From positions 496,001 to 560,000 of the forward strand of contig BROG01000472.1 in NCBI GenBank assembly GCA_030159075.1: a stretch of DNA of 64,000 bases, read 5' to 3'. The notes under the pieces were generated by a model. It saw nothing but the letters and a program-made list of their open reading frames with translations. It was not told where the DNA came from and made no database searches. Below are positions 22,001 through 46,382 of this stretch, piece after piece. Position 1 is the first letter of the stretch. Every line of letters begins with the position of its first letter. The translations under genes were made by a program, and so were the position numbers. Source of the DNA: Atrina japonica (lineage: Eukaryota > Mollusca > Bivalvia > Pterioida > Pinnidae).

Positions 22001-22006
22001 CACATT
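22001..22006. repeat. Target site duplication of Polinton 1 (left)
   Basis: CACATT here equals CACATT at 33368-33373, immediately outside the two ends of the element. Polintons make 6-bp duplications, so this fixes the ends of the element to the base. Confidence 0.92.
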
Positions 22007-22590
22007 AGTAGTAATAGGCAGCTCCATGGTGTGCCATTTGAATTTTGGCTTCTGATTGGTCAATTCAAATGGCACACCATGGAGCCGCCTGTGACGTCAT
22101 AACCGGAAGTGCGTCATACCGGAAGTGAGGTCATACCGGAAGTGCGTCATACCGGAAGTGAGGTCATATTGTCATGGCAATAAGGAGAAAGAGCCAATCG
22201 TTGAGTTTGGGGGCGTGTCTATGACCGGAAGTGGAAGGTTGTGGGGGCGGCCATCTTGGCTAAGGAGCCAATGAGAGCCTTCGTTACAAGAGGTTGGGGT
22301 CACGAGAAGTCACAAGAGGTCACGAGAGTTCACGAGAAGTCAACGGGAAGAGAGAGAAGTTGGGTTTTTCCAGTTTTGAGCTGAGAGTGAATCTATTTTT
22401 AGAACCGAAACTTTGGGGTTTTCCAGGTTTGTGAAACTCGTAGTTGGTGGCGCCACCGTCGGTGAAACTAGTAGTTGGTGGCGCCACCGTCGTTGAGAGT
22501 TGTGTATCATGCGCATGCGCGAGAAGCGATAGGCCGAGCTCGATTCAAGCTTGAACTAAGACTTGTACTAAGGCTTGTAGAGTGACGAGT
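22007..22590 (+). repeat. Left terminal inverted repeat of Polinton 1
   Basis: Matches the reverse complement of 32640-33367. From the tip: a palindrome (22017-22089), CRE GTGACGTCAT (about 22090), four ACCGGAAGT ETS-type sites in about 60 bases, CCAAT (in ATTGGCTC form near 22196), GGGGGCGTG, another ETS site, YY1-like GGCCATCTTGG (about 22249-22259), two GGCGCCACCGTCG blocks and NRF1-like TGCGCATGCGCG (22510-22521). The right copy differs by an internal duplication of about 60 bases. Confidence 0.9.
22017..22089. repeat. Terminal hairpin (left)
   Basis: A 28-base arm GGCAGCTCCATGGTGTGCCA... pairs with its inverted copy ending TGGCACACCATGGAGCCGCC, one mismatch, around a 17-base loop. The right end has the same arms around a loop about 50 bases longer, so the left loop carries a deletion. 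Confidence 0.9.
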
Positions 22591-22919: not shown

Positions 22920-23290
22920 GTGTAACGTACTCAAAGTTTGTCAAAGTGATCAAGTGTGTACCGTTCTCAAAGTTTGCAACGTGTGCAACGTTCTAAGTTA
23001 TGAAGTCTCAAAGTGACACAAGTGACAAAGTGGCACAAGTAGTTTGTGTCGTTCTCAAAGTTTGCAACGTGTGTACCGTTCTCAAAGTTTGCAGCGTGTG
23101 CAACGTTCTAAGTTATGAAGTCTCAACGTGACACAAGTGACAAAGTGGCACAAGTAGTTTGTGTCGTTCTCAAAGTTTGCAACGTGTGTACCGTTCTCAA
23201 AGTTTGCAGCGTGTGCAACGTTCTTAGTTATGAAGTCTCAACGTGACACAAGTGACAAAGTGACACAAGTAGTAAAGTGTAAAGTATGAA
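22920..23290. repeat. 115-bp tandem repeat, about 3 copies
   Basis: AGTTTGTGTCGTTCTCAAAG recurs at 23041 and 23156 (115 bases apart). The unit contains smaller repeats (CAACGTGTG, ACCGTTCTC, GACACAAGTGACAAAGTGGC). It lies between the TIR and the leader/coil gene, and its role is unknown. Confidence 0.9.
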
Positions 23291-23664: not shown

Positions 23665-23706
23665 GGTTTCTTTTCGTGAAAGTTAGGTGGCCCTGAAAAG
23701 GGCCGT
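23665..23706 (-). terminator. Histone-type 3' stem-loop and downstream element of the coiled-coil gene
   Basis: Twenty-three bases after the stop codon of the coiled-coil gene the minus strand reads AAAC-GGCCCTTTTCAGGGCC-ACC (stem-loop 23704-23689): a six-base-pair stem, four-base loop TTTC, and the A-rich and ACC flanks. It agrees with the replication-dependent histone mRNA stem-loop pattern. Fifteen or so bases further on, GAAAAGAAA (23675-23667) resembles the purine-rich histone downstream element bound by U7 snRNP. The equivalent gene in the second Polinton relic has the same arrangement at 43253-43289. Confidence 0.75.
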
Positions 23707-23727
23707 TTGTTTCGGGTTGTTAAAACC

Positions 23728-24075
23728 CTATTCCCCGTCCATCAGACGTCGCAACTGACTGACTTGCACTTCTTTTTCCTTTATCAGGCGTCTAATTTCT
23801 TGTTCCTGCAGCCTCAGAAGTCTCAAATCTGCCTGAGCCATAGTATACTGCAGCTCAGGCAGTGGAGGCGCTGATGGTACAGCCCTGGGTGGAGGAGGTC
23901 TAGGGGGTGGTACCCTAAAGCTGCAAGGTGGTGGTGGCGGCGGACGGTCTAAAAATGCTGGTCGACGGGGAGTAGGCCGCAATATCGTCACTTTTCTCTT
24001 CGGCGACGAACACCGACGAATTCCTCTGACAAAATCTGTTTCACTTGGAATATCTTCAAACCTGTGATGATGAAC
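23728..24075 (-). pseudogene. Small Pro-rich coiled-coil Polinton protein, start codon lost
   Basis: The frame read leftwards has a basic start (CSSPKRKVTILRPTPRR), a proline-rich middle (DRPPPPPPCSFRVPPPRPPP) and a C-terminal coiled coil of about 35 residues (LRLLRLQEQEIRRLIKEKEV). ATG at 23991 would give 87 codons, but the frame extends upstream through GIRRCSSPKRK, and the second relic (42916-43281) places its start further up. At the homologous spot (24068-24066) this copy has ATC in place of ATG. TATATAAA (24110-24103) lies about 35 bases upstream of that spot in both copies. The gene is transcribed toward the near end of the element. Function is unknown; the coil suggests self-association. 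Confidence 0.7.
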
Positions 24076-24102
24076 TGATACCGAGTCACACCAAATGTCT
24101 GG

Positions 24103-24110
24103 TTTATATA
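24103..24110 (-). promoter_or_regulatory. TATA box of the coiled-coil gene
   Basis: TATATAAA on the minus strand, in the same context (CTCTATATAAAC) and at a similar distance from the start site as TATATAAA at 42875-42882 in the second relic. Confidence 0.65.
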
Positions 24111-24306
24111 GAGACTATGAACGCGCACGCAATCAATGACGTCAGAGGTCTATTCGGAGTATGAGTTGTTTCATGACTCCTACTACTACTACTCGGAACG
24201 TTTTTGTCTTATACCTTAGATGTTTTATGCATACACTACTCAAGTGACCATGTATATAATACATGACTGAAGTGACCATGTATATAATACTACATCTCTC
24301 AGTTTC

Positions 24307-24989
24307 ATGACTAGTATTAAAATGGCCTACTATCAGTCCATATCTCCTGATACGATACAATTAAAGCATGAATTTACCATGGTTGTGGCGGGACCTACCA
24401 AATCAGGGAAAACTGTATTTGTAAAACAGTTGATAGAATGGAAGGATCAATGGATTCATTCCCCTCCCGACAAAATTGTATGGTGTTATCGTGAATGGCA
24501 ACCTGCTTATGAAATCTTACAACGGGAACATCAAGTTCACTTCGTTCAAAATATACCTGAGGATGACGAAGTCTTAGTTTCTGATCCAACTCGTCGTCAC
24601 CTACTTGTCTTTGATGATATGATGATGGCAGTAAAGCTCTCGATTCTATCGTAGAATGGTTTACACGTAAAGCTCATCATCGAAACACAAGTGTGATCTA
24701 CATCACTCAAAACTTGTTTGATCGTGCTAAACAATATCGTACCATAAGTCTGAATGCTCATTATCTCGTCCTGTTTAAGAATCCTAGAGATAAATCTCAA
24801 GTGACCAGCTTATCACGTCAATTAGACCTACCAGTATTAAACCATGCTTATCACGATGCTACAAATCGTCCTCATGGTTATCTCTTGATTGATCTCACAT
24901 CGTCTACCCCTGATAATCTAAGATTAAGATCAGATCTGTTTCATCCTTGGTTTACGGGAGGAATAGTGTTGTATACACCTTATAAGTAG
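24307..24989 (+). pseudogene. Genome-packaging ATPase (FtsK/HerA, A32-like), frameshifted
   Basis: This is the double-jelly-roll virus packaging ATPase that pumps DNA into capsids. Walker A is VVAGPTKSGKTVFVKQL (about residues 26-42) and Walker B is HLLVFDDMM (about 97-105). After it the frame is lost near 24625-24650 by one base; the next frame resumes with NTSVIYITQNLFDRAKQYRT, a sensor-like motif, and runs to a stop after YTPYK. Combined length of about 225 residues is normal for the family. The more likely start is the second ATG at 24322. It lies directly inward of the coiled-coil gene, where the other relic has PolB. Confidence 0.88.
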
Positions 24990-27379: not shown

Positions 27380-28442
27380 ATGATCCGTTCTAATCGGGGT
27401 GGTTATGCAGGTGTACAACCTCTCTATCGAGAAGTGAAACGTCGAAAGTACCCCATTTCTCTAAATGAAGTCAAACAATGGTTGAAAGAACAAGACACGT
27501 ATACGCTTCATAAATCTATCAAGAGAAAGTTTCCTCGTAAACCAAACGAGAGTGACCGATATGGATGAACAATGGCAATTAGATTTAGCGGATGTATCCA
27601 ACATCAAGACACACAATGATGGGTATACGTTTCTCTTATGTGTCATTGATGTTCTATCTAAATATGCTTGGGTCATCCCTTTGAAAAATAAATCTGCCAA
27701 AGAAATGGTACGAGGGTTTCAAGCAGTATTAAAACAAGCTAAAGGACGACGTCCTATTCGTATACAATCCGATAAAGGAAAAGAGTTTTTGAATCGTGAA
27801 TTTCGTCATACGTTTCATGATATTCATTTCTTTACGACAGACAATACAGAAACAAAAGCTAGTATTGTAGAACGCTTTCAAAGGACCCTAAAAGCTCGCA
27901 TGTGGAGATATTTTACTCATACTCGTTCACGTCGTTATGTTGACGTTCTACCTCAGATTGTTCAAGCTTATAATCAATCGTATCATCGTAGTATCGGTAG
28001 AAGTCCCATAGAAGTCAATCCTTCCAATGTGTTAGAAGTCTGGGAGACCTTATATGGTACCCCTTCTAAAAACCGTCCATTGCCCAAGTTTCATACAGGT
28101 GATCGCGTACGTATCAGTAAAGTAAAGCGTACATTTGATAAGGGATACTTACCTAACTGGACCACGGAACTGTTCACGGTCGAGAAACGAGTACCTGATC
28201 GTTATCCTTATGTGTATTACATCCAGGATGATCACCAAGAACGATTGGAAGGTACGTTTTACGAATCTGAATTACAACCCGTTGTGAAAACAGATGATGT
28301 CTATGAAGTCGACGAGATTCTCGATCATAGAAAAAGGCGTGTAGGTAAAAATCGAGTTATAGAAGAAGTGAAGGTACATTGGAAAGGATATCCTTCTACT
28401 TTTGATTCATGGATCCCCAAATCCAACTTGATCGACCAGTAG
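27380..28442 (+). pseudogene. Polinton integrase (DDE rve core and chromodomain), one frameshift
   Basis: This enzyme inserts the element, producing 6-bp duplications. The N-terminal part (27380-27560) has GGYAGVQPLYREVKRR and WLKEQDTYTLHKSIKRKFPR. The frame shifts near 27550, and the core (27552-28442) carries the catalytic triad: D in WQLDLADV, D in IQSDKGKEFL and E in SIVERFQRTLKARMW. An SH3-like segment follows (TGDRVRISKVKRTFDKGYLP), then a chromodomain (EVKVHWKGYPSTFDSWIP). Only one frameshift separates it from a complete protein. A stem-loop follows the stop directly. An N-terminal piece of a second integrase is at 40221-40343. Confidence 0.92.
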
Positions 28443-32450: not shown

Positions 32451-33235
32451 CCATAGGTTTAGTGATTATCGTATGAAACATGTACAAACAATATCTCAGA
32501 AAAAATTAGGTAACTAGCAACGTGAATAAGGTTTTCATTACTTATCACTTAATTATGGTATCAGGTAAATACCCCATCATCTAATCAATGTTCATTCACT
32601 CTAGACCTTAAAGACCCATCACTATACATTTACTGTACAAGTCTTAGTACAAGCTTGAGTCGAGCTCGGCCTACAGCTTCTCGCGCTTGCGCACTTGAAA
32701 CAGAACTCTCGACGACTAACAGTGACGGGCTCGGCCTACCGCTTCTCGCACATGCGCACTCGCACACTCTTAACGACGGTGGCGCCACCAACTACGAGTT
32801 TCACAAACCTGGAAAACCCCAAAGTTTCGGTTCTAAAAATAGATTCACTCTCAGCTCAAAACTGGAAAAACCCAAAGTTTCGGTTCTAAAATAGATTCAC
32901 TCTCAGCTCAAAACTGGAAAAACCCAAAGTTTCGGTTCTAAAAATAGATTCACTCTCAGCTCAAAACTGGAAAAACCCAACTTCTCTCTCTTCCCGTTGA
33001 CTTCTCGTGAACTCTCGTGACCTCTTGTGACTTCTCGTGACCCCAACCTCTTGTAACGAAGGCTCTCATTGGCTCCCTAGCCAAGATGGCCGCCCCCACA
33101 ACCTTCCACTTCCGGTCATAGACACGCCCCCAAACTCAACGATTGGCTCTTTCTCCTTATTGCCATGACAACATGACCTCACTTCCGGTATGACCTCACT
33201 TCCGGTATGACCTCACTTCCGGTTATGACGTCACA

Positions 33236-33357
33236 GGCAGCTCCATGGTGTGCCATTTGAATTGACCAATCAGAAGCCAGTATTCTGATGACGTCATCAA
33301 AACCGTTAAAAAGCGCCCCCTGGCGGCAAAATTCAAATGGCACACCATGGAGCTGCC
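33236..33357. repeat. Terminal hairpin (right) with full loop
   Basis: Arms GGCAGCTCCATGGTGTGCCA... and ...TGGCACACCATGGAGCTGCC flank a loop containing TGATGACGTCATCA (palindromic CRE) and GCGCCCCCTGGCGGC (33313-33327). Confidence 0.9.
33313..33327 (-). promoter_or_regulatory. CTCF-like motif in the terminal hairpin loop
   Basis: The minus strand reads GCCGCCAGGGGGCGC, very close to the core CTCF recognition pattern (CCACNAGGGGGCGC type). It is absent from the left hairpin because of a loop deletion. Binding in this organism is untested. Confidence 0.4.
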
Positions 33358-35136: not shown

Positions 35137-37455
35137 ACGACGGTTCCAAGTAATAACCACAAATGGGCCTCACTTAACATTAGAAATCACTTCTATTAGT
35201 GTCCACAGATGAACCTCAGTTAACATTAACGACTGTTCCAAGTAATGGCCACAAATCGGCCTTAGTTAATTTGGACACGTAGATTTGAATTGTGTTTCAA
35301 ATTCCTATTGTATTTATTTACCTGTATGAACTTACTTGTGGTTTTCTTGATATATTTACGAGCCGGCCTGGCTCAGTCGGTAGCGCGCTCGACTCTGGAT
35401 CGTGAGGTCCTGAGTTCGAGTCCCGCCGGCGACAGGTTGGTTTCCTTTCTTTTGGATGAAACGGTAAAAGAACGGCCAAAATTTGAAGCCCTTCACCGGC
35501 ATTTGGTGACGTCTCCATATCAGTGAAATATTCTTGAGTGGGACGTTAAACAAACAAACAATGGTATATTTACCTCCCTTTAGGAAATATACTACTTAAT
35601 CCTTTTATGGATTGTGAACATTTATTTTTGTGTGCGATAATTTTCTAACATGAGGGTGATCTCCCTTATTTAAACCTTGCAACTGTGTATGCAGGTAAAA
35701 TTAATGTCTTTTTGTGAGTACTTTTCATGTCTTTTGTTTTATTTCAACTTTCTTTTCTCAGTGTTTAGATTTGGCTAGCTGTGTCCAGTTTGGACCAGTT
35801 TTCTGTATAGTATATATGTTGGACAAATTTAACACTACTTTAGTTTACCTTAGTTAACATTAACCAGCACTTCCAGTAGTGACCACAGATGGACCTTAGT
35901 TAACATTAACCACCACTTCCAGTAGTGACCACAGATGCACCTCATTTAACATAAACACTCACTTCCAGTAATGACCACAGATGGGTCTTGGTTAACATTA
36001 ACCACCACTTGAAGTAGTGACCACAGATGGACCTTAGTAAACATTAACGACCGCTCTAAGTATTGACCACAGGTGGGTCTTATTAACATTAACGATCACT
36101 TCCAGTAGTGACCACAGAAGGGCCTTAGTTAACATTAACTAACATTAACGATCACTTCCAGTAGTGACCACAGATGGACCTTAGTTAACATTAACCACCA
36201 CTTCCAGTAGTGACCACAGATGGACCCTAGTTAACATTAACCACCACGTCCAGTAGTGACCGCAGATGAAACTCGGTTAACATTAACAATCATTCCAGTA
36301 ATGACCACAGATGGTCCCCGGTTGTTATTAACGATCACTTCCATGTAATGACCACAAATGGACCTTGGTTATCATTAATGATCATTTCAAGAAGTGACCA
36401 CAGATGAACCTTACTTAGAATTAACCATCACTTCAAGTACTTACCACAGATAAACCTTGGTTAACATTAACGACTGATCCATGTAATGACCACAAGTGAA
36501 TCTTGGTTATCATTAACGGTCATTTCCAGTAATGACGACAGATGAGCCTTTGTTAACATTAACCACCACTTCCAGTAGTGACCACAGATGAACCTTAGTT
36601 AACATTAACCACCACTTCCAGTAGTGACCACAGATCAACCTTAGTTAACATTAACCACCACTTCCAGTAGTGACCACAGATGAAGCTTAGTTAACATTAA
36701 CGATCACTTTCAGTAATAATCACAGATGGACCTCAGTTAATATTAACGATCACTTCCAGTAGTGACCACAGATGGGCCTTAGTTAACATTAACGATTGTT
36801 CCAAATAATGACCACAGATGGGCCTTAGCTAACATTAACCACCACTTCCAGTAGTGACCACAGATGGGCCTTAGCTAACATTAACCACCACTTCCAGTAG
36901 TGACCACAGATGGACCTTAGTTAACATTAACGATCACTTCCAGTAGTGACCACAGAAGGGCCTTAGTTAACATTAATCACCACTTCCAGTAGTGACCACA
37001 GATGGACCTTAGTTAACATTAACGATCACTTCCAGTAGTGACCACAGAAGGGCCTTAGTTAACATTAACGATCACTTCCAGTAGTGACCACAGGTGGACC
37101 TTAGTTAACATTAACGATCACTTCCAGTAGTGACCACAGATGGACCACAGTTAACTTTAACGACCGTTCCAAGTATTGACCACAGGTGGGCCTTAGTTAA
37201 TATTAACGATCACTTCCAGTAGACCACAGATGGGCCTCAGTTAACATTAATGATTTTTCCAACTAATGACCACAGATGGACCTTAGTTAACATTAACCAC
37301 CACTTTCTGTAGTGACCACAGATGGACCTTAGTTAACATTAAACACCACTTCCAGTAGTGACCACAGATGGACCTTAGTTAATATTTACAATCACTTGTA
37401 GTACTGAGCACATATGGGTCTTAGTTAACAATAACGATCACTTCCAGTAATGGCC
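35137..37455. repeat. 46-bp minisatellite, interrupted at about 35275-35840
   Basis: The unit GATGGACCTTAGTTAACATT + AACCACCACTTCCAGTAGTG + ACCACA is repeated about 35 times from 35845 to 37455, with three more diverged units at 35137-35270. Between them lie about 560 bases that include a SINE, so the array predates that insertion or the block was captured inside it. Confidence 0.93.
35360..35561 (+). mobile_element. tRNA-derived SINE
   Basis: The head GAGCCGGCCTGGCTCAGTCG contains the A box (TGGCTCAGTCGGTAGCGC), and the B box is GAGTTCGAGTCCCGCC. The body is GACAGGTTGGTTTCC, and the 3' end is TTGAGTGGGACGTTAAACAA + ACAAACA. It is shorter than 9495-9749, lacking about 55 internal bases. Translated frames over it are artefacts. 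Confidence 0.9.
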
Positions 37456-37726
37456 ATCAATAACAAAATGTAATGAATAATGTTATTTCAGTAACTAGAT
37501 ATAGTTTTGATAATTACGAGAATAAAATCTTTGTAAAATTCTATGAACGAGAAACTTTAAGGCTGGGGTACATTAAATACTACTGGTTAACATGATGTTT
37601 GTTTCATACCTGTTGTTTTGAGTAATAAGCGTGATTGGTTTCACATTTTACTTCCTGCCTTTACATCGAAAATGGTTTGTGTATTTAAAATGTATACAAA
37701 TTACAGCTTCTTGAACTTTCAATAAA

Positions 37727-42915: not shown

Positions 42916-43281
42916 ATGGATAACTCATCCGACATTGATATGCAACCTGAAGAGAGAAACACGAAAATCATTCTTACACGGAGGACACGTATTGTAGTAA
43001 GGCCACACAGACCGATAAATTCTGGTAGGACCCCTGCGACACCTACTACACAACACCAGGGACCACCTAGACCTGACCCTTCACTTCCAGTACCTGTACA
43101 ATACGTACTAGCTCAGGAAGCATTAGCCAATCTTCGACAACATAAGGCAGAGATAAATCGACTGATGATAGAGAAAGAAAGTTCGTCGTTGGCGATGTCT
43201 ACTCGACATATATTAGTCTCTCTCTCTTATTCAGCTTTTAGGAGCAATCAACGGCCTTTTAAGGGCCACCCATCTTATTAG
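42916..43281 (+). pseudogene. Pro-rich coiled-coil Polinton protein, second copy
   Basis: ATG at 42916: a basic start KIILTRRTRIVVRPHRP, Pro-rich middle TPTTQHQGPPRPDPSLPVPV and coil ALANLRQHKAEINRLMIEKE, the same three-part layout as 23728-24075. After the coil the frame runs on into the 3' stem-loop, so the original stop (expected near 43200) has been lost by a small indel; the annotated end is not the ancestral one. It faces the surviving terminal repeat at 44414, as in element 1. Confidence 0.7.
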
Positions 43282-43290
43282 AAAAGAAAT
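43249..43290 (+). terminator. Histone-type stem-loop, second copy
   Basis: CAAC-GGCCTTTTAAGGGCC-ACCC (43253-43267) followed by GAAAAGAAA (43281-43289). Compared with 23689-23704 one base of the left stem is lost and the loop is altered, but flanks, spacing and the purine-rich downstream element are kept. Confidence 0.6.
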
Positions 43291-43424
43291 CTTAACTAAA
43301 AGTACGCAGGTTTTATGTTTGTGTTATTCTGTAGCGGCGAGTTTAAAATATTGTAGTGACTAAACACTACTTATCAGTGTATGTTTGCTCAACATTTACT
43401 TCCATGTATTAAAGTTTGATATAG

Positions 43425-43735: not shown

Positions 43736-43974
43736 GTTTACCTTACGAAACGGTAATTTTCAATATCTCAGAAAAAAATTAGTGAGCTAGCAATAAGCGT
43801 TAATAAGGTTTTCATTATTTACAACTTTATTATGCTATCTGAGGAATCCCCCATCAGCTAATCAACGTTCATTCACTCTAGACCTCAAAACTGGGGAAAA
43901 CCCATCTCCTGTAGCATTACAACTCTCGTCAACTCACGTAAACTCTCGCCGACTGTGGCGACACCTACTACTGA

Positions 43975-44414
43975 TTTACCTCCAAGTCTCAAACCTGGAA
44001 AAACCCAAAGTTTCGGTTCAAAAAATAGATTCACTCTAAACCCAAAACTGGAAAAACCCAACTTCTATCTTTAGCATCTGACCTTTCGGAACTCACGTGA
44101 CCTCTCATGACCCGGACCTCTTGTAACGAAGCCTTTCACTGGATCATTAACCAAGATAGCCGCTCCCATAACATTCTACTTCCGGTCAACGACACGCCTC
44201 CGAACTCAACGATTGGCTCTCTCCTTGTCGCCAATTCAACATGACCTCACTTCATGTATGACGTACTTCCGGTATGGCCTCATTTATGGTATGAAGCACT
44301 TCTGGTTATGACGTCACAGGCAGCTCTATAGCGCGCTTTTTAAATTAAGCAATCAGAAGCCAAGTTTCTGATGACGTCATCAGTGGTGGAGCTATGGAGC
44401 TGCCTATTACTACT
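43975..44414 (-). repeat. Surviving terminal repeat of Polinton relic 2
   Basis: Aligns, with much divergence, to the right TIR of element 1: AACCCAAAGTTTCGGTTC, ACCTCTTGTAACGAAG, AACTCAACGATTGGCTC, TATGACGTCACAGGCAGCTC and the tip GAGCTGCCTATTACTACT ending at 44414. The next six bases are ATTATG; no matching left end with that duplication was found, so the left end is lost. Confidence 0.8.
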
Positions 44415-44454
44415 ATTATGTAAGTTCGATACCCGAATGATTAAACTAGGATTA

Positions 44455-45046
44455 AGTCTCTGTAATCTTTAGTGTTCAGTGAACTGAATACCTCGCATTA
44501 ATTTTCTACATTTTTCAATTCTATCACGATTGTTTGATTAAGATAAAATTCTCGGAGAAGTCTGGGTATCAGCGTGTTATAGCAAACCAACATCCTTTTC
44601 TTACGCAACAATGGTATTCTCGGACTTAAAATCTGTCGCAAAACACCAACATGTCTTTTGAATACTTCATTATCACGAACCAGCAACGTAATGGAGCCAT
44701 TCATGATACATTCTACAACTTAAGTCAGAGCTGCCATCATAAGTATATTTAGCATACGAATTAAACCTTTTTTTACTTTCACACTTGTTTCATTTCCCAA
44801 TTCTCTGAGAAAAAATAGATATCGACGGACAAGAGATTGATTTATCTTTCCTTTTCAGACTTTCAGTTGTAGACTTATTTCAATTAGTTGTTCTTTATAT
44901 TATATTGTTAACATTATTCATGTATTCTAATAAATTCCATATATATCAAATATTAATTAACTAATTCAATTTCTATTTTTACAAATAACGCCACATTCTC
45001 ACCTCAATTGTCAATTGAATTATGAGATTGCAGTAATATCTGACTT
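44455..45046. repeat. Direct repeat, left copy, flanking the LINE
   Basis: GTCTCTGTAATCTTTAGTGT ... TTGCAGTAATATCTGA. Virtually identical to 45819-46382, apart from about 28 extra bases here at about 44970-44998. A 68-codon minus-strand frame (KRHVGVLRQILSPRIPLLRK, CYNTLIPRLLREFYL) is identical in both copies and weakly resembles the second half of PX-like Polinton proteins. Confidence 0.9.
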
Positions 45047-45818
45047 TGTTAGCATTATTCTTAAGAATATGCAAGGATCAAAATACATTTATGATTTATT
45101 CTTAGAAAATATAAAACATATATCAAAGCATGAAAATAAATGGAAATCTTCATTAAACTTAAACAACAATTTTATATTTAAACCATACTACAAACTTCTA
45201 CATCAGTGTACAAAAGATCCTAAACTAAAATGTTTCAGTATAGAATATTGTATAGAATTCTTGGTACAAATAAGAATCTTTTTGATTGCAAGATAAAAAC
45301 AAACGGAGTTTGTAGTCTATGCCAATCCAATACAGAAACAATAGAACATTTATTTGTCCAATGTTATCACGCTCAACAGATATGGACACAATTAAAACAA
45401 TGGATTGAAAACATGTTATACAGATTTACATTTTTCATTAGAAAATATTCTATTTGGAATTCCTGGTAAAAATAATAATGCAATTAATGTGATTTTACTA
45501 CTTGTAAAATACTATATATTTACAAAGTCTAGACAAAATTCACACCTGAACCTCAATGAGTTACAGCATAATATTTTGTCTTATTATATTGCAGAAAAGA
45601 ATTCATATGCAGTGAATATGAAGCAAAACGAATTCACCATCAAATGGAATAATGTAAAAAACATTATAACTAATATACATTAGAATTCCTATATATATAT
45701 GTATCATAATATGACCTGGATGAAAGTTGTGTGTATGTGTGAATATACCTGTCTCTTGTATCTTATATGTTGTATTTTGTTTACATACTAAATAAATAAA
45801 AAAAAAAAAAAAAAAAAA
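45047..45818 (+). mobile_element. 5'-truncated LINE with poly(A) tail
   Basis: Broken frames carry the end of a non-LTR reverse transcriptase: KCFSIEYC / QYRILYRILGTNKNLFDCKI and NGVCSLCQSNTETIEHLFVQ CYHAQQIW, a zinc-binding tail of the C-x2-C...H-x4-C type. After a final stop at about 45683 come about 115 bases of 3' UTR and a poly(A) run to 45818. Only the 3' part was integrated, as usual for LINEs. Confidence 0.85.
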
Positions 45819-46382
45819 GTCTCTGTAATCTTTAGTGTTCAGTGAACTGAATACCTCGCATTAATTTTCTACATTTTTCAATTCTATCACGATTGTTTGA
45901 TTAAGATAAAATTCTCGGAGAAGTCTGGGTATCAGCGTGTTATAGCAAACCAACATCCTTTTCTTACGCAACAATGGTATTCTCGGACTTAAAATCTGTC
46001 GCAAAACACCAACATGTCTTTTGAATACTTCATTATCACGAACCAGCAACGTAATGGAGCCATTCATGATACATTCTACAACTTAAGTCAGAGCTGCCAT
46101 CATAAGTATATTTAGCATACGAATTAAACCTTTTTTCACTTTCACACTTGTTTCATTTCCCAATTCTCTGAGAAAAAATAGATATCGACGGACAAGAGAT
46201 TGATTTATCTTTCCTTTTCAGACTTTCAGTTGTAGACTTATTTCAATTAGTTGTTCTTTATATTATATTGTTAACATTATTCATGTATTCTAATAAATTC
46301 CATATATATCAAATATTAATTAACTAATTCTAATTTCTCACCTCAATTGTCAATTGAATTATGAGATTGCAGTAATATCTGA
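45819..46382. repeat. Direct repeat, right copy, flanking the LINE
   Basis: Begins at the base after the LINE poly(A) with GTCTCTGTAATCTTTAGTGT and ends TTGCAGTAATATCTGA. See 44455-45046. Confidence 0.9.

Follow-up and report, generated by a model that had tools for sequence, protein, structure and literature searches.

Histone-type mRNA 3' end signals behind six small non-histone gene families of Polinton-type elements in Atrina japonica

In replication-dependent histone mRNAs, the 3' hairpin is bound by SLBP, and the downstream element is the pairing site of the U7 snRNP. The pre-mRNA is cut just past ACC(C)A without the addition of poly(A), and the resulting mRNA is unstable after DNA synthesis stops.

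Passages of PMC12819152 describe histone mRNAs as the sole non-polyadenylated protein-coding transcripts in animals, and the abstract of PMC12775136 uses similar wording. The bracovirus histone H4 treated in the same passages of PMC12819152 resembles the present case in being a virus-derived gene that touches histone expression; a histone protein is involved there, whereas only a histone-like message end is involved here. Among the open-access titles and abstracts listed, histone-type 3' ends are undescribed in Polintons or other mobile elements, and a term search of the retrieved text of a viral histone review (PMC9145170) returned none of the terms stem-loop, SLBP, polyadenyl-, Polinton, and Maverick.

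The gene families described below, A to F, share with the replication-dependent histone mRNA 3' end (RF00032) the stem, the loop, the AAC/ACC flanks, and the downstream element, and with these mRNAs in general the distance past the stop codon and the uninterrupted open reading frames (ORFs). Unlike replication-dependent histone genes, they are non-histone, lie in a mobile element, and are known here from DNA sequence alone. Their elements have in common with Polintons (Mavericks) a PolB gene, an rve-chromo integrase, long inverted repeats, and an ATPase-like gene; they differ in carrying A to F with histone-type ends and, beside an array of these genes, an ORF with a BIR domain, features absent from the Polinton descriptions found.

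A histone-type 3' end on gene F in a Polinton-type element

The window, a 64,000-nucleotide stretch of A. japonica contig BROG01000472.1, contains two histone-type 3' ends (Table 1). On the minus strand, positions 23709 to 23663 read CAAAC-GGCCCTTTTCAGGGCC-ACC, followed 13 nt past the stem by GAAAAGAAA, and 23 nt separate the stem from the stop codon of a small ORF, gene F. The Rfam Histone3 model (RF00032) aligns to these positions over all 46 of its own, with 40.0 bits (E value of 2.8e-8) against a gathering score, used here as the cut-off, of 34 bits. This is the sole gathering-level match of any Rfam family in the window, and the full histone 3' end layout that the initial annotation had read at this site was thus borne out. 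The same downstream element occurs in copies of A, B, and D to F and, as GAGAAGAAA, in most copies of C.

Table 1. Features of the window
Feature	Position	Strand	Remarks
Left terminal inverted repeat, F-carrying element	22040..22431	+	93.6% identical, inverted, to 32909-33285
Purine-rich downstream element GAAAAGAAA, likely U7 site	23667..23675	-	Read from sequence; within Rfam alignment
Histone-type 3' stem-loop of gene F (GGCCCTTTTCAGGGCC)	23689..23704	-	AAC before, ACC after (23688-23686); Rfam RF00032
Gene F reading frame, 128 aa, stop to stop	23728..24114	-	Stop codon 23728-23730; relatives L040, L055, L096
TATA box (TATATAAA) upstream of F	24103..24110	-	Read from sequence; placed alike in L055 and window E
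Packaging-ATPase-like gene adjoining F, split over two frames	24313..24989	+	Best Pfam Pox_A32
Polinton-type integrase with chromodomain	27561..28442	+	Pfam rve 5.1e-10, Chromo 5.6e-10
Right terminal inverted repeat, F-carrying element	32909..33285	-	Pairs with 22040-22431
Reading frame of gene E (121 aa; related to F), second element	42916..43281	+	
Decayed histone-type 3' end of gene E	43248..43292	+	RF00032 27.7 bits, below cut-off
Right terminal inverted repeat, second element	43946..44415	-	77.8% identical, inverted, to 22006-22465

The product of gene F is proline-rich and basic with a coiled-coil-like C terminus. The window copy lacks the start codon that intact copies elsewhere have at the same place. 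Gene E is a relative of F, as evidenced by the match of query E to F, and neither product matched PHROGs. The initial annotation had described a second relic keeping the signal at the same gene. A decayed hairpin does stand at E, F's relative; it is weaker than that description implied, since its 27.7 bits (E values of 1e-5 for the 601 bases searched and 0.0011 for the whole window) fall short of the gathering score. Its 5' arm is short by one base, and the ORF of this copy of E reads through the hairpin.

The elements are Polinton-type, an assignment pieced together from separate copies, with PolB beside an array of genes A to D and the integrase beside F. Gene F adjoins the ATPase-like gene in the window and in L023, L041, and L046; the Pox_A32 match of the latter gene has an E value of 0.0038, below the Pfam cut-off. 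F and E both point outward in the window and lie inward of a left inverted repeat by 1.3 kb and of a right one by 0.7 kb, respectively. At L069, which adjoins the array locus L010, a protein-primed family B polymerase (PolB) is present in two pieces (PF03175, 49.1 and 45.5 bits; cut-off of 25.8) together with a degraded E. Comparison of a candidate capsid fragment with solved structures gave no meaningful match.

Other sequence features were also noted. CRE-like TGACGTCA words occur upstream of F and inside terminal repeats (window 24137-24144, 33289-33296, and 44372-44379), as well as in 5 of 6 listed gene A promoters. Minisatellite-like long direct repeats lie at 35840-37456 and at 22938-23273, the latter within the element, in the stretch from the left inverted repeat to F, and 44454-45043 is directly duplicated at 45817-46382 with 95.6% identity.

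Six gene families with the same 3' end

All counts for A to F come from one genome, the 832-Mb host assembly. The exact 19-nt hairpin GGCCCTTTTNAGGGCCACC occurs there at 778 places (366 + 412), and the reversed pattern, searched as a control, at none (0 + 0). A chance hairpin is ruled out by this difference and by the Rfam score at gene F. A search of the assembly with the Rfam model scored the best 75 of 155,611 first-look candidates, which makes it a ranking rather than a census, and 72 of these 75 hits exceeded the RF00032 cut-off. The 75 hits were all taken, in 73 stretches (60 of 4 to 4.8 kb and 13 of about 0.6 kb). By homology, 68 of them end genes of six small non-histone families, A to F; one lies behind a linker histone H1 (L018; PF00538, 3e-21), and six are unassigned (L015, L022, L032, L049, L056, and L057). 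A one-gene oddity is ruled out by the hairpin being common to six gene families.

The larger loci contain 117 gathering-level hairpins, found in 59 of the 60 (L064 was outside the Rfam scan), and 109 of these hairpins lie 3' to a gene of families A to F and on that gene's strand. The other eight are at L018 (the H1 gene), L015, L022, L032, L038, L049, L056, and L057, and one of them has just an antisense gene nearby. Outside the studied loci, 17 of the first 20 exact-hairpin places listed matched A to F by tblastn and three matched nothing, with the match at one of the 17, L101, consisting of a single fragment far upstream. No H1 was found by tblastn at any of these 20 places, core histones being outside the query set. 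No relatives of gene B were found in the viral contig collection or in phage records, nor relatives of PolB or the exact hairpin (0 places) in the contig collection, in which a wider hairpin pattern occurred at one place, inside a phage-like ORF and without an Rfam match.

Among 100 listed places, exact hairpins also appear in outward-facing pairs 5 to 8 kb apart, as if at the ends of short element copies; examples on G000 are C2:1681273(-)/1686614(+) and C2:3685089(-)/3692846(+). At L090 (C2:3692246-3692896), a zinc-knuckle frame leads straight into a histone 3' end of the D type, which looks as though it had been swapped onto another gene.

Does the hairpin go with the gene? When up to three substitutions are allowed, it is present in the studied loci at 34/37 copies of A, 34/38 of B, 30/33 of C, 31/33 of D, 11/11 of E, and 7/7 of F, two E rows that were F copies having been dropped; the 12 misses comprise seven genes without a hairpin and five without a C terminus. 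Many of these rows had been chosen by their hairpin (29/34 for A, 7/11 for E, and 6/7 for F, the seventh F being the window copy). Outside such rows, the stem is fully paired in 4/5 copies of A, 23/30 of B, 23/27 of C, 19/24 of D, 1/4 of E, and 1/1 of F. A gene-first test instead picked copies of gene B by protein similarity, scoring 150 among 562 candidates, and took the first 20 that reached the C terminus outside the studied stretches plus five more diverged ones. The first 20 all keep the hairpin, 18 with every pair and 16 passing the Rfam cut-off; the five diverged copies, judged by eye, include four with the hairpin, two of them with a full stem, and one, L128, that has lost the region. 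The gene-selected total is 24/25 with a hairpin and 20/25 with a fully paired stem. Two of the checks that the initial annotation had suggested came out in its favor: the Rfam model exceeds its cut-off at window F, at the 117 locus hairpins, and at 16 of the 20 B copies, and far from being missing at related elements, the stem-loop is present at every F and E copy studied, most of them hairpin-chosen, and at nearly every B copy selected by gene.

Genes A to D, whose query proteins have 64 to 119 residues, form an array. Wherever all four can be recognized (30 loci), they stand in the order D- C+ B- A+ or the reverse complement of this order; another 11 loci contain between one and three of the genes. 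A and B are divergent with a median of 121 bp between them, as are C and D with 227 bp, and B and C are convergent with 284 bp between their coding parts. In copies with intact, uninterrupted ORFs, the hairpin lies 13 to 34 nt past the stop codon, and at L010 and L012 all four array hairpins exceed the Rfam cut-off. For 16 of the 25 other array loci, the 2 kb to the right of the array align with those of L010 as a single block no shorter than 1.8 kb. Certain copies share 99% identity across 2 kb and have therefore spread recently. To the right of gene A, on the opposite strand, ORFs at L063 and L010 encode a BIR (inhibitor of apoptosis) domain (Pfam, 4.8e-23) and, as seen by eye, CCHC zinc knuckles. 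No Pfam family, histones included, reaches its cut-off with A to F, and A to F are accordingly rejected as histones. In many copies of A to D, the extreme C terminus is a basic stretch followed by cysteines (e.g., CFLCHGI, RRCYCQY, and CCCCCL). Such tails resemble lipid-anchored ones and would suit membrane anchoring.

Of 140 copies, 134 have TTTC or TTTA as the loop, with variation at the same base as in histones. Stem pair 3 is C-G in 99/102 copies of A, B, D, and F and in 7/11 of E, while in 25/27 copies of C it is T-A, i.e., changed on both sides. Mean identity to the majority letter, taken outside hairpin-chosen sites, was compared for the zone before the hairpin, the hairpin, the downstream element, and +60 to +100. 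The respective values are 0.81, 0.96, 0.99, and 0.83 for gene D; 0.94, 0.97, 0.99, and 0.83 for gene B; and 0.92, 0.97, 0.96, and 0.87 for gene C. By these figures, the hairpin and downstream element are a conserved island in D, and the contrast is small in B and C. Pooled dN/dS, from non-independent pairs and with some ORFs altered at an end, is 0.40 for A (12 ORFs), 0.44 for B (8), 0.46 for C (11), and 0.24 for D (8). Gene D, with a median dS of 1.10 versus 0.16 to 0.29 for A to C, is far more diverse than its array neighbors. The cis signals are real, repeated, conserved, and rightly placed; the sequences show their strand and number as well, together with coding constraint on the genes.

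Message processing and competing explanations

We propose that A to F probably encode SLBP/U7-processed, non-polyadenylated, S-phase mRNAs of a Polinton lineage that are built like histone messages. In this account, the lineage carries six small non-histone families whose messages have the layout of replication-dependent histone ones, namely, an uninterrupted short ORF, a short gap past the stop codon, an SLBP-type stem-loop, AAC/ACC flanks, and a purine-rich U7 element. Cleavage by way of host SLBP and U7 snRNP would fall a few bases past the hairpin and leave an mRNA without a poly(A) tail, which would be translated in S phase and destroyed once DNA replication stops. The D- C+ B- A+ order is a compact divergent and convergent array resembling a histone repeat unit. 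The parts required by this machinery are present in the A-F sequences, which makes replication-coupled mRNAs the most likely products; cleavage at the hairpin, the missing poly(A) tail, S-phase coupling, and the host histone-gene origin of the 3' end are what we infer. We also lean, though only somewhat, toward the idea of an S-phase regulon of the element's own making, in which non-histone genes arrayed like a histone repeat recruit host SLBP and U7. A search for host U7 snRNA found none, and it was equally silent in its control genomes.

The 3' end of the host H1 gene (hairpin, then CGAAAAG) resembles the A-F cassettes, and this resemblance suggests that their 3' end was captured from a host histone gene. 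It is conceivable, if unlikely, that the hairpin is a mere leftover of such a captured end, spread by duplication within the element, and that downstream poly(A) sites do the work, alone or as a second mode. Within 250 nt past the hairpin, AATAAA occurs in 25/34 copies of A, 19/23 of C, 2/29 of B, 1/26 of D, 1/8 of E, and 2/7 of F. When ATTAAA is also admitted, the counts are 29/34 for A, 20/23 for C, 7/8 for E, and 5/7 for F, i.e., most copies of these genes, along with 15/26 for D and 3/29 for B. These are raw counts, uncorrected for AT content, of words that are common in AT-rich DNA. They fit a leftover hairpin, as do the broken stems of some copies and the sequence similarity among the genes, which extends past the downstream element. 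A leftover would nevertheless not be expected to show the conserved island of D, the two-sided stem change of C, or the retention of every pair in 18 of 20 gene-selected B copies, and in B the poly(A) word is rare. After PolB and after 8 of 10 other window genes, the first 300 nt contain neither word, and the word test therefore separates no two gene classes. The counts do not support a neat division of the genes into one class with hairpins and another with poly(A) signals, and a mixed or backup poly(A) mode for A to F is possible.

Two further explanations appear very improbable. The palindrome might act as DNA, or in another RNA role, in replication, packaging, or termination without SLBP. 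Polinton replication needs terminal signals, and at the exact-hairpin places listed, hairpins near element ends often face outward in pairs, as such a role would have it. Against this, the hairpin tracks the gene strand and the stop codon (109/117), occurs inside arrays away from ends as well, and fits the whole histone model, including the loop, the flanks, and the downstream element; a DNA-level palindrome without strand sense is in particular disfavored by the strand placement and the stem and loop pattern. About equally remote is the explanation that A to F are host genes of a histone-like class that merely lie near or inside Polinton debris. The array and gene structure are histone-like, and host H1 has a 3' end of similar type, yet A to F have no Pfam histone match, F adjoins the ATPase-like gene within an element that has inverted repeats at its ends, PolB stands beside array L010, and the alignment to the right of that array continues in a single piece across most of the array loci compared.

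Implications for Polintons and the histone mRNA pathway

The rule that only histone mRNAs are made in this way would be broken by a mobile element that carries such 3' ends by the hundreds. If SLBP/U7 processing of the A-F messages is true, these genes would be the first non-histone animal protein-coding genes to make non-polyadenylated, replication-coupled mRNAs, and poly(A)-selected transcriptome sequencing could miss them for that reason. Their RNAs could also load the host SLBP/U7 pathway as competitors. Element activity would then be timed to host S phase, perhaps in the germline or the embryo, and A. japonica would show how a selfish element can couple its expression to host DNA replication.
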